Assembly: GCA_002070505.1 (NCBI GenBank)
Contig: MWDJ01000025.1
Coordinates: 1 to 50,785 of the forward strand
DNA from: Bacteroidetes bacterium ADurb.Bin145
GTDB taxonomy: Bacteria > Bacteroidota > Bacteroidia > Bacteroidales > VadinHA17
Length of the DNA: 50,785 nt
Direction: 5' to 3'
Part shown: positions 47,319 to 50,781 of the stretch, one piece after another
How the letters are laid out: each line of letters begins with the position of its first letter
Numbering within the stretch: the stretch's first letter is position 1
Translations under genes and position numbers: made by a program
The notes under the pieces: model-generated
Database searches by the model: none
Told to the model about the DNA's origin: nothing
The model's input: only the letters and a program-made list of their open reading frames with translations

Positions 47319-47966
47319 ATGAAAAGAATTTTACCTGACCTGTTAAAAAACTGGTTTGGATATACAAGACGTGAAAGACGATCCTCATTTTTTCTGCTTC
47401 TTGTTACTCTGGCAATTGCTGGTATCAGGTTTATTGTTCCGGCACATAATCTCACAATTCAGGTGACTGATATAAATTCTTTTGGACCGCTCTTCGATTC
47501 AGCTGGAAAAACCAGTCAGAATTCAGGAATACAAAGCCATTATAATAAGAACTACTCTGTTCAGAGTGAGCGATTGCTTGAACTTAATAGCTGCGACTCT
47601 GCTTCGCTTGAATCCTTGCCTGGACTGGGTCCTGTACTGTCCTCCAGAATAATTAAATACCGGAATCTGTTAGGAGGATTTGTTTCGGTTGAACAGCTCA
47701 GGGAAGTGTACGGATTATCTGAAGAAACATACAAGCTCGTTTCAGTTATGTTGAAAGCCGACTCAGGGCTTGTTAGGAAGATCCCGGTTAACAGTGCTGA
47801 TTACCGGCAGCTGATCCGTCTGCCGTATTTTGAGAGGAGTGAAGTGAGTTCAATTCTGAAATACAGGGAGTTGATGAAGAAGGTTGAAAGTATTGGCGAA
47901 CTGGTTGAAAACAAAATCATTACTCCGGAAAAGGCAAAAAAAATTGGTCCATATCTATCGTTTTGA
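47319..47966 (+). CDS. Helix-hairpin-helix (ComEA-like) DNA-binding protein
   Basis: A 215-residue protein with one membrane helix near the N-terminus (about 23-42, SSFFLLLVTLAIAGIRFIV) and a soluble part outside. Helix-hairpin-helix units: ELNSCDSASLESLPGLGPVLSSRIIKYR (first), continuing with LGGFVSVEQLREVYGL, then PVNSADYRQLIRLPY...EVSSILKYREL (second). The pattern 'DSASLESLPGLGPVLSSRII' matches ComEA, the DNA receptor for competence. With the ComEC-like protein at the left edge of the window it could serve DNA uptake, but a general DNA-binding role is possible. The stop codon is directly followed by an inverted-repeat copy. Confidence 0.87.
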   Translation: MKRILPDLLKNWFGYTRRERRSSFFLLLVTLAIAGIRFIVPAHNLTIQVTDINSFGPLFDSAGKTSQNSGIQSHYNKNYSVQSERLLELNSCDSASLESLPGLGPVLSSRIIKYRNLLGGFVSVEQLREVYGLSEETYKLVSVMLKADSGLVRKIPVNSADYRQLIRLPYFERSEVSSILKYRELMKKVESIGELVENKIITPEKAKKIGPYLSF

Positions 47967-48002
47967 ATTCCCCCTTTGAAGGGGGTCAGGGAGATGTTTT
48001 AC
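47967..48002 (+). repeat. Repeat copy A of the DUF559 cassette
   Basis: 36-nt sequence with an internal hairpin (CCCCCTT-TG-AAGGGGG) followed by TCAGGGAGATGTTTTAC. It begins right after the helix-hairpin-helix gene stop codon. It is flanked by GAATTC, as is copy C in inverted orientation. Confidence 0.9.
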
Positions 48003-48056
48003 TGGAGCTCAAGAAGATGTCTAATAGTGCCGCAATTAAGACATTAGCACAAACAG

Positions 48057-48092
48057 ATTCCCCCTTTGAAGGGGGTCAGGGGGATGTTTTAC
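48057..48092 (+). repeat. Repeat copy B of the DUF559 cassette
   Basis: Same orientation as copy A and identical except for one base (GGGGGATG instead of GGGAGATG). It lies 29 bases before the nuclease start codon. Confidence 0.92.
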
Positions 48093-48121
48093 AGAGTGTT
48101 TAGAGAATGTAAAAACAAATC

Positions 48122-48508
48122 ATGTCAAAAAACAGAATCCATAAATATAATCCGAGATTAAAAGTGCTGGCCAGGCAATTAAGACAGAACAGTACACTTG
48201 CTGAAGTGATCCTTTGGTTAAATATAAAAAAGGAAGCATTGTCTTATGAGTTCCACAGGCAGGTACCAATAAATGAATATATCGTTGATTTCTATTGTCA
48301 TGAATTGGAATTAGCAATAGAAATAGACGGGTATACCCATGATTACAATTATGAAAAGGATATAAAAAGACAAAAAGTCTTAGAAGCTCTGGGAATAAGA
48401 GTTGTGCGTTTCACTGAGGAAGATGTAAAGAAGCATCTTAATGATGTAATAAGGGTTTTATTGGCGACAATAGAAGAAATTGAAAATGGGCATGATACCT
48501 CATTTTAG
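48122..48508 (+). CDS. DUF559 (Vsr/endonuclease-like) small nuclease
   Basis: A 128-residue protein of the DUF559 family, a PD-(D/E)xK/Vsr-like endonuclease fold. Seen: STLAEVILW with the conserved Glu28, the EFHRQVPI segment with Gln47, YIVDFYCHELELAIEIDGYTH containing Asp56, Glu67, Asp69 and His73 (the likely metal and catalytic residues), and GIRVVRFTEEDV in the C-terminal strand. All typical family residues are intact, so it is probably active, though its substrate has not been established for the family. The gene is bracketed by inverted copies of one hairpin-bearing repeat (A and B upstream, C downstream), and sits just before the highly conserved rpsU locus. That arrangement suggests a small mobile cassette. 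Confidence 0.87.
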   Translation: MSKNRIHKYNPRLKVLARQLRQNSTLAEVILWLNIKKEALSYEFHRQVPINEYIVDFYCHELELAIEIDGYTHDYNYEKDIKRQKVLEALGIRVVRFTEEDVKKHLNDVIRVLLATIEEIENGHDTSF

Positions 48509-48517
48509 TGCAACAAT

Positions 48518-48548
48518 ACATCCCCCTAACCCCCTTCAAAGGGGGAAT
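48518..48548 (-). repeat. Repeat copy C (inverted) of the DUF559 cassette
   Basis: The reverse complement reads ATTCCCCCTTTGAAGGGGGT-TAGGGGGATGT, matching copies A and B with one difference in the shared core (TTAGG for TCAGG). It begins 9 bases after the nuclease stop codon and is bordered by GAATTC on its outer side like copy A. Confidence 0.92.
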
Positions 48549-48717
48549 TCATCCTGGATATGTACTGGTAATTTTAAGAAATATTTAACTGCACATTTTT
48601 GGATAATAGCCGAATATTTCGTATCTTTCATATCTACTAATTCAAGGGTAAGAGAGTTGTATAATCATTTAAATATCAAATAATAAAAGTGTATGGATAA
48701 ATTATCTCCCTAATAGT

Positions 48718-48775: not shown

Positions 48776-48967
48776 ATGATCATTGTACCATTAAAAGAAG
48801 GCGAAAACATTGAAAGAGCTTTAAAGAAGTTCAAAAGGAAATTTGAGAAAACAGGAGTGATCCGTGAATTAAGATCACGTCAGGCTTTTGTTAAGCCTTC
48901 AGTTCGTCGCAGGGAAGAGATCAAGAAGGCTATATACGTGCAAAAGATGCAGGAGGACGAAGAATAG
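48776..48967 (+). CDS. rpsU: 30S ribosomal protein S21
   Basis: Small basic ribosomal protein bS21, 63 residues (MIIVPLKEGENIERALKKFK at the start; a C-terminal RRREEIKKAIYVQKMQ). It lies at the mRNA exit side of the 30S subunit; in Bacteroidota bS21, with bS18 and bS6, helps sequester the anti-Shine-Dalgarno, which fits the scarcity of Shine-Dalgarno sequences in the window. The rpsU - xer - hpf - tRNA order is conserved in the phylum. Confidence 0.96.
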   Translation: MIIVPLKEGENIERALKKFKRKFEKTGVIRELRSRQAFVKPSVRRREEIKKAIYVQKMQEDEE

Positions 48968-50350: not shown

Positions 50351-50424
50351 GCCGATGTAGCTCAGTTGGCCAGAGCAGCTGATTTGTAATCTGCAGGTCG
50401 GGGGTTCGAATCCCTTCATCGGCT
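50351..50424 (+). tRNA. trnT: tRNA-Thr (anticodon TGT)
   Basis: 74 nt. Acceptor GCCGATG pairs with CATCGGC, discriminator T; T-loop TTCGAAT; anticodon TGT at 50385-50387 in a TTTGTAA loop. The anticodon stem GCTGA/TCTGC has a central T-T mismatch. First of four tRNAs. CCA is not encoded. Confidence 0.96.
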
Positions 50425-50472
50425 CTTGAAGGAGTTGTGAATGAGTGTCTAGGAGAATACTCTGTTTCAAGA

Positions 50473-50555
50473 GGGGAGATACCAAAGTGGCCAACTGGGG
50501 CAGACTGTAAATCTGCTGGCGAATGCCTTCGTAGGTTCGAATCCTGCTCTCCCCA
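50473..50555 (+). tRNA. trnY: tRNA-Tyr (anticodon GTA)
   Basis: 83 nt, class II with a long variable arm. Acceptor GGGGAGA pairs with TCTCCCC, discriminator A. Anticodon GTA at 50507-50509; stem GCAGA/TCTGC is perfect. T-loop TTCGAAT. CCA is not encoded. Confidence 0.97.
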
Positions 50556-50625
50556 CTTTAAGCAGAATGTACCGGACTTGCAAATGTAAGCGAACGGTAT
50601 TTACAGACCTCTTTGGACGATATAA

Positions 50626-50698
50626 GCGGGAGTAGCTCAGTTGGTAGAGCATTAGCCTTCCAAGCTAAGGGTCGCGGATTCGAGCTCCGTCTCCCGCT
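50626..50698 (+). tRNA. trnG: tRNA-Gly (anticodon TCC)
   Basis: 73 nt. Acceptor GCGGGAG pairs with CTCCCGC, discriminator T; anticodon stem TTAGC/GCTAA with loop CTTCCAA, anticodon TCC; T-loop TTCGAGC. CCA is not encoded. Confidence 0.97.
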
Positions 50699-50709
50699 CA
50701 CTTTTTGAT

Positions 50710-50781
50710 GCCAGAGTAGCTCAGGGGTAGAGCACTTCCTTGGTAAGGAAGGGGTCAGGGGTTCAATTCCCCTCTCCGGCT
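50710..50781 (+). tRNA. trnT: tRNA-Thr (anticodon GGT)
   Basis: 72 nt. Anticodon stem CTTCC/GGAAG, loop TTGGTAA, anticodon GGT at 50742-50744; T-stem AGGGG/CCCCT. The acceptor GCCAGAG against CTCCGGC has one A-C mismatch at the fourth pair. In Bacteroidota this tRNA is usually followed by tuf, which would lie beyond the window. Confidence 0.95.

Follow-up and report, generated by a model that had tools for sequence, protein, structure and literature searches.

Closest described systems

Two families of dispersed bacterial repeats come close to the element reported here, a DUF559 nuclease gene enclosed by inverted repeats in a 50,785-nucleotide stretch of Bacteroidetes bacterium ADurb.Bin145 (contig MWDJ01000025.1, positions 1 to 50,785; hereafter, the window). 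The first comprises the BoxC/PIT/TM motifs (Holder et al. 2015, PMC4666352, citing Hoyne and Maher). These are dispersed in their genomes and have the class II order, in which a pyrimidine arm and a purine arm are followed by a tail pairing as G*GC with A*AT or T*AT, and an isolated strand of the E. coli motif is reported to fold as a triplex (PMC4666352). The second is the REP/RAYT/REPIN system (PMC2817692, PMC3116915, PMC8266576), in which a gene lies between inverted repeats, cognate repeats are dispersed, gene and repeat co-evolve, and gene-less inverted doublets occur. On the protein side, the window nuclease belongs to the family that includes E. coli YcjD and Neisseria NGO0050 (3hrl), and its predicted Vsr-like fold is shared with the EDxHD homing endonuclease I-Bth0305I (3r3p).

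Our sequence comparisons indicate that the nuclease and its triplex-coded repeat are one co-evolving, REP/REPIN-like system. The arm order, base code, and dispersal of the repeat are those of BoxC/PIT/TM, but whereas PMC4666352 names no partner protein, here the repeat has a matched nuclease and forms inverted-pair units. All four features listed above for REP/RAYT/REPIN recur here; however, the enzyme is a DUF559 nuclease instead of an HUH/Y1 transposase, and the repeat lacks the GTAG/CGTC tag but carries a triplex-coded tail. Without the enzyme and the tag that define REP/RAYT, the system is not a member of that group. We consider it probable, at roughly 0.6, that the locus is a small mobile-element-like unit, REP/REPIN-like and nuclease-driven, in which a DUF559 gene lies between inverted cognate intrastrand-triplex repeats.

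The repeat half thus appears to be of a known kind, and what appears new within the literature searched, which was mostly without subscription papers and preprints, is the partner nuclease, together with the units and the matching; in its titles and abstract openings, we found no paper on DUF559 concerning these repeats. That nucleases and repeats are matched in many bacteria points to a form of small mobile DNA that has escaped notice. If our reading is true, a restriction-like nuclease joins the enzymes to which the spread of palindromic repeats is ascribed, and triplex-coded DNA would have a biological use as a recognition tag; moreover, a matched nuclease makes the spread of such repeats testable in E. 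coli, through ycjD and BoxC.

The unit in the window and its repeat

The nuclease gene (48122-48508, plus strand; 128 aa; PF04480, E value 4.5e-30) is enclosed, as a preliminary description of this stretch had stated, by inverted copies of one repeat, B (48057-48092, plus strand) on the left and C (48515-48551, minus strand) on the right. Repeat B consists of a pyrimidine arm (48060-48066), a TG loop, a purine arm (48069-48075), a TCA spacer, and the triplex tail GGGGGAT (48079-48085, plus strand), which is directed toward the gene. In repeat C, the hairpin lies at 48530-48545, and the tail, ATCCCCC on the plus strand (48520-48526), is likewise directed toward the gene. A further copy, A (47967-48002, plus strand), is an extra direct copy 90 bp 5' of B; B is 97% identical to A over 36 nt, and C shows 92% complementarity with A (37 nt) and 94% with B (34 nt). 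The core CCCCCTTTGAAGGGGG lies at 47970, 48060, and 48530 (minus strand). Its pattern gave six window hits at three or fewer mismatches versus 0.39 expected (0 of 100 shuffles equaled this), and the six hits represent three places, the core being almost identical to its own complement.

The preliminary description had proposed A to C as the unit, with B to C (about 490 bp) as an alternative. We set A to C aside and judge B-gene-C the likelier unit, because (i) the tail of A, GGGAGAT, deviates from the motif GGGGGAT and (ii) the units of relatives show B/C-like core spacings of 419-567 bp (470 bp in the window). DUF559 is the sole gene of the unit, and its Pfam matches are DUF559 and MTES_1575 only. 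The Pfam scan of this gene showed neither a DDE transposase, in which the unit differs from a classical insertion sequence, nor an HUH/Y1 (IS200/IS605-like) transposase, the predicted fold being Vsr-like.

In its own genome (3.95 Mb, 92.5% complete, 218 contigs), CCCCCTTTGAAGGGGG occurs at 21 exact and five one-mismatch places, with none for a reversed-pattern control, and the window gene is the one DUF559 match. The aligned copies read, with slight variation, ATT-CCCCCTT-TG-AAGGGGG-(T)YA-GGGGGATGT; by eye, a G-rich tail follows the hairpin in nearly all, and the GTAG/CGTC tag was not seen beside the palindrome. The outer GAATTC common to A and C is weak evidence for unit ends, because every one of the 26 copies in the genome has ATT before the core and 14 have AATT. 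Some copies form direct repeat pairs (L005/L006, L010/L011, and L020/L021, with periods of 67, 100, and 101 bp), with some adjoining DNA duplicated.

Triplex code in the repeat

Each copy does hold the hairpin described for it, but a plain-hairpin end does not describe it fully, as the G-rich tail, which the preliminary description does not mention, makes a predicted purine-motif intrastrand-triplex motif. Read in mirror order, the tail that follows the hairpin in these flanks copies the purine arm, with G answered by G and A by A or T, as in the arm/tail pairs AGAGGGG/GGGGTGT, GGAGGGG/GGGGTGG, AAGGGGG/GGGGGAT, and AGGAGAAGGGG/GGGGGATGAGGT. The antiparallel purine-motif code is likewise G at G, and A or T at A (PMC4666352), and window repeats B and C fit the class II order (hairpin, then mirrored tail) by sequence.

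When hairpin and tail were picked blind, that is, without reference to the code, 178 of 264 positions at 95 loci (67%) obeyed it, versus 46% in permuted pairs (0 of 5000 as good). With one row for each of the 62 distinct arm-tail pairs, 115 of 194 positions did so, versus 44% (0 of 5000). This agreement is lowered by loci at which the wrong hairpin was picked. A motif of at least seven triplets lies beside 109 of 139 DUF559 genes versus 14 of 311 control open reading frames. Decoy codes, with one mismatch, also found motifs by these 139 genes (A:CG, 60; A:G, 52; A:C, 12), as did a direct instead of a mirror reading (78 of 139); the count of 109 alone is therefore no proof of the code, which is carried by the blind permutation. 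By these comparisons, the repeat is a predicted class II intrastrand-triplex motif (BoxC/PIT/TM), a known repeat class.

Association of the repeats with DUF559 genes

In our sample of the order (149 genomes), DUF559 occurs in 59 genomes and the exact core in four, and in each of the four a DUF559 domain lies no more than 100 bp from a core. The association of repeat and nuclease that the preliminary description had singled out, with the nuclease between inverted repeats as a general pattern, thus held up in this sample. Further, we compared both 300-bp flanks of 59 stand-alone DUF559 genes, namely the window gene and 58 order loci that were near full length, in a short frame, and without internal stop; partial or broken matches and a few at contig edges were left out. 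Both flanks were usable in 57, and controls came from the same loci. A repeat common to both flanks was present at 39 of the 57 genes versus 7 of 292 control open reading frames, and at none of five DUF559 genes in long frames (692-1202 codons).

At a score of at least 16, flank repeats were direct at 31 of 57 genes and inverted at 14. Inverted flanks as the sole pattern were accordingly rejected, and, direct repeats being commoner, we analyzed the loci for duplications. At 53 of 145 loci, the gene is spanned by long direct repeats (26-544 bp), which often contain a motif (in this set, L148 coincides with L288, L150 with L290, and L151 with L291, and L150 and L290 are both among the 53).

Within intergenic gaps, the motif was found in 119 of 184 near a DUF559 gene versus 20 of 309 elsewhere. 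Where a strict motif lies on both sides (45 of the 139 loci, L106 and L153 being one locus counted twice, on the same contig and with an identical nuclease), its orientation is +- at 32, ++ at 6, -- at 5, and -+ at 2. The named relatives, the best 80 of 518 loci and biased toward the window's nuclease clade, come, as judged from record titles, from Bacteroidota, Calditrichota, Zixibacteria, Bacillota, Planctomycetota, Chloroflexi, and other phyla. Physical linkage between gene and repeat is thus plain by comparison.

Two side observations concern the ends of these genes. The nucleases of L103, L111, L108, and L090 have C-terminal tails that are seemingly repeat-encoded (e.g., ...HPPNPLQRGN), the right repeat overlapping the gene end. 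In the Flavobacteriaceae loci L152, L154-L156, L159, L162, and L169, the DUF559 frames of 266-270 or 445-450 codons are apparent in-frame fusions with the downstream neighbor.

Nuclease clade and repeat type

The order nucleases adjoining the window's core (window, L103, L106, and L111) form one clade among 59, with a support of 98/98 from a bootstrap that had not settled. L079, the second DUF559 of one of these core-bearing order genomes, has a different repeat and a different place. Typing of the 139 loci gave no type pattern at 65, two at three, and one at 71, of which three had a too-short protein, leaving 68; L218 was typed as type 4 from one flank despite a nearer type 1-like hairpin. 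On the tree of 68 nucleases, which was built from few alignment columns and is weakly supported at many forks, the five repeat types require 8 changes versus a shuffled mean of 36.7 (0 of 200 as low). For 58 of the 68, the closest nuclease from another genus has the same repeat type (shuffled mean, 17.2; maximum, 32), and the three repeat types of Pontibacter fall into three tree groups. Clade and type thus match by comparison. Chance or shared composition, by which G-rich hairpins would accumulate in loose intergenic DNA where small genes survive too, fits the variable, low-complexity intergenic surroundings of the copies and the motifs that decoy codes find near DUF559; contradicted by both the intergenic control and this matching, it is scarcely credible.

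Copy numbers follow a similar pattern. Pelosinus has one DUF559 gene, between type 2 cores, and 17 type 2 cores; Tannerella has one DUF559 and 22 type 1 cores; two Capnocytophaga have one DUF559 each, with 14 and 15 type 1 cores; and none of the four has cores of the other types among types 1, 2, and 4. Type 1 cores number 0-2 in the searched Muricauda/Allomuricauda, Winogradskyella, Flavobacterium, Xanthomarina, and Zunongwangia, whose fetched nucleases are of type 4, type 2, or untyped. The pattern is broken by Pontibacter, with 9-62 type 1 cores in 14 of 14 genomes, even where the fetched nuclease is of another type; other DUF559 genes (2-6 per genome in the seven searched) may be the reason. 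Two genomes with a type 1 nuclease (L158 and L171) have just two type 1 cores each.

Another enzyme, such as a RAYT/Y1 transposase, could instead spread the repeats, the nuclease gene being cargo. An IS200-like (Y1) protein, recognized by eye, does lie ∼1.9 kb from the unit in one congener of the window genome (G163; L287:572-1033). However, the core was not found beside that gene in the fetched stretch, and the repeat type follows the DUF559 clade, which leaves cargo a very improbable account.

Units at different sites in the genus

Among 62 genomes of the genus, DUF559 occurs in 48 and the exact core in 22. In seven units, the nuclease lies between inverted repeats with tails inward. Three (window, L289, and L291) occupy the interval between a helix-hairpin-helix gene and rpsU, and four (L287, L288, L290, and L292) occupy other places, so that same-clade units do occur elsewhere in congeners; one repeat end has diverged in L288, L291, and L292. 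The L290 unit lies just before xseB (named by eye), and the start of that gene recurs on either side of the unit (40 bp, 90% identical). By comparison, then, copies are dispersed and units stand at different sites.

The preliminary description took the helix-hairpin-helix-to-rpsU locus to be otherwise conserved, and here it did not hold: the interval is variable, measuring 116-921 bp in congeners without DUF559. In the comparison for empty sites that it proposed, 19 of 22 other congeners have no DUF559 in the interval, two have a different DUF559 with a different repeat, and one was unresolved. In the two (L119 and L125), the different repeat is also triplex-coded, and one of the nucleases has an internal stop.

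One Pontibacter site and gene-less pairs

We compared one site in nine Pontibacter genomes, downstream of the same gene (71-90% identical DNA); the comparison leaves out seven weaker matches, which came from five additional genomes and from a second place in one. The unit is present in L313 and inverted in L319. Decayed nuclease ends, recognized by eye, remain in L316 and L317. At the site in L318 (G240), where two relatives carry the unit, there is a 32-bp palindrome built from the unit's two outer ends, which looks like an excision or deletion scar. The unit is absent from L314, L315, L320, and L321, the last with a hairpin just beyond the interval. By comparison, a single site thus holds the unit, its inverse, remnants, or none; the flip would be accounted for either by recombination of one end with the other or by two insertions.

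Among the matches listed in Pontibacter, type 4 neighbors less than 150 bp apart are arranged +-, with tails inward (22), or -+ (2), never ++ or --. Their spacings are 59-97 bp, mostly 73 and 93-97, as in the 20 gene-less pairs read (L293-L312), which are REPIN-like. At 150-700 bp, all six type 4 neighbors listed are +-, and five of them (444-567 bp) hold a DUF559 gene. Five other Pontibacter units, with longer hairpins (L369, L370, L371, L376, and L378), have tails outward.

Fold of the nuclease and readings without a mover

An AlphaFold2 model of the window nuclease has a mean predicted local distance difference test score of 91.1. Its best Foldseek matches are NGO0050 (3hrl, E value 2.8e-6) and I-Bth0305I (3r3p, 4.6e-5), with Vsr weak (E value 0.025), and profile matches agree (3hrl, 3.3e-33; I-Bth0305I, 7.4e-8), so that the modeled fold is Vsr/EDxHD-like. 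Across 53 sequences, Glu28, Glu67, Asp69, His73, and Asp80 are invariant and Asp56 is at least 90% conserved. The nuclease also matches NF007294 (PRK09767, which we take to be YcjD) at an E value of 8.2e-16, far below its cut-off. An earlier study assigned YcjD to the PD-(D/E)XK superfamily, with Vsr as a relative (PMC1189080).

This fold, with I-Bth0305I among the closest solved structures, and the placing of a DUF559 gene in the EDxHD homing family (PMC9403480) suggest homing-like spread, in which the nuclease cuts cognate repeats and the unit is copied by homologous repair via repeat or flank homology, without transposition chemistry. The direct repeats of 26-544 bp across the gene, such as repair-linked duplication might leave, and the two congeners with a different DUF559 and repeat in one interval would suit it as well. 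A homing gene, however, splits its target, whereas here the gene is bracketed by end repeats, its presumed target, that are both whole and inverted, and gene-less pairs of near-fixed length would require a separate means of spreading; we regard homing as unlikely, although it is the strongest of the rivals.

Less likely still is a housekeeping or defense role, in which a structure-specific enzyme tuned to the repeats of its genome clears away or mends triplexes that act as obstacles, or is directed against foreign DNA, and moves nothing. The Vsr-like fold, weak partial PADLOC matches of the nuclease (DpdF, mREase_II, and PDC-S69; E values 3e-6 to 2e-5), and the instability published at E. coli motifs (PMC4666352) are in keeping with such a role, but the gene's position between inverted repeats, at varied places and in both orientations, would be left unexplained, as would the gene-less pairs.

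A proposed route of spread and its difficulties

For a nuclease-driven unit, we propose the following route. The repeat would fold in the cell as a hairpin plus third strand when single-stranded, on the lagging strand or during repair; the nuclease would recognize arm plus tail and nick there; and the inverted pair would be excised or copied and would enter, by strand transfer, other sites that are single-stranded or broken. Single repeats, and inverted pairs that lack the gene, would then be non-autonomous passengers able to spread, or else surviving relics. The cassette idea of the preliminary description is on this reading largely correct.

Several observations pull the other way. The repeat types were defined after the flanks had been inspected, 18 of 57 stand-alone DUF559 genes have no flank repeat, and 30 of 139 have no motif of seven triplets. 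In the genus, DUF559 lies beside an exact core in at least 6 of the 22 core-bearing congeners among the matches listed, with none listed for the remaining 16; these matches show none beside an exact core in G149 (13 cores) or G190 (five), and G154 and G186 (one core each) have no DUF559. The presence of the nuclease between the helix-hairpin-helix gene and rpsU in three congeners means that it can be resident, and the nuclease of the inverted Pontibacter unit (L319, P. populi) has an internal stop. Short target duplications were not above shuffles at the 20 gene-less Pontibacter pairs, a further difference from classical insertion sequences, and near-identical copies were not seen, three P. 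aydingkolensis units being 75-79% identical and two of them sharing duplicated surroundings. Finally, a Caulobacter DUF559 protein has been studied as a Vsr-like repair enzyme (PMC12907096).

E. coli, plasmids, and a broader hypothesis

To our knowledge, ycjD is the sole DUF559 gene of E. coli K-12. BoxC of E. coli fits the arm-tail code, and the copy at 1351205-1351240, one of 23 tabulated for MG1655 (PMC4666352), lies ∼170 bp from ycjD. A second hairpin overlaps the ycjD 3' end (K-12 region 1351205-1351418; L329:3706-3919), and in a pair at 3.046 Mb the tails face inward. Of 5426 genomes, 3362 cover at least 80% of the ycjD region. In the opened strains without ycjD, the fabI-sapF interval holds an efflux operon (eefRABCD in PMC12817139), a replacement and no empty site.

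Among DUF559 genes of other phyla from a plasmid collection, the motif accompanies 6 of 11, and a control stretch has it in 3 of 11 as well (39 records matched, 12 of the 25 listed were taken, and L394, a 1,600-residue fusion, was left out). A Sinorhizobium DUF559 gene has BoxC-like motifs on both sides. We tentatively extend our reading, at close to even odds but a little short of them, to DUF559 nucleases as engines of a new mobile-DNA class with triple-helix-recognized ends in many phyla, of which BoxC/PIT/TM repeats, those of E. coli included, would be non-autonomous offspring and relics.

Surroundings of the unit in the window

Upstream, the unit and repeat A are flanked by the helix-hairpin-helix gene (47319-47966, plus strand; PF12836, HHH_3), and downstream by rpsU (48776-48967, plus strand; PF01165). 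Farther downstream, positions 50351-50781 hold four consecutive tRNA genes.
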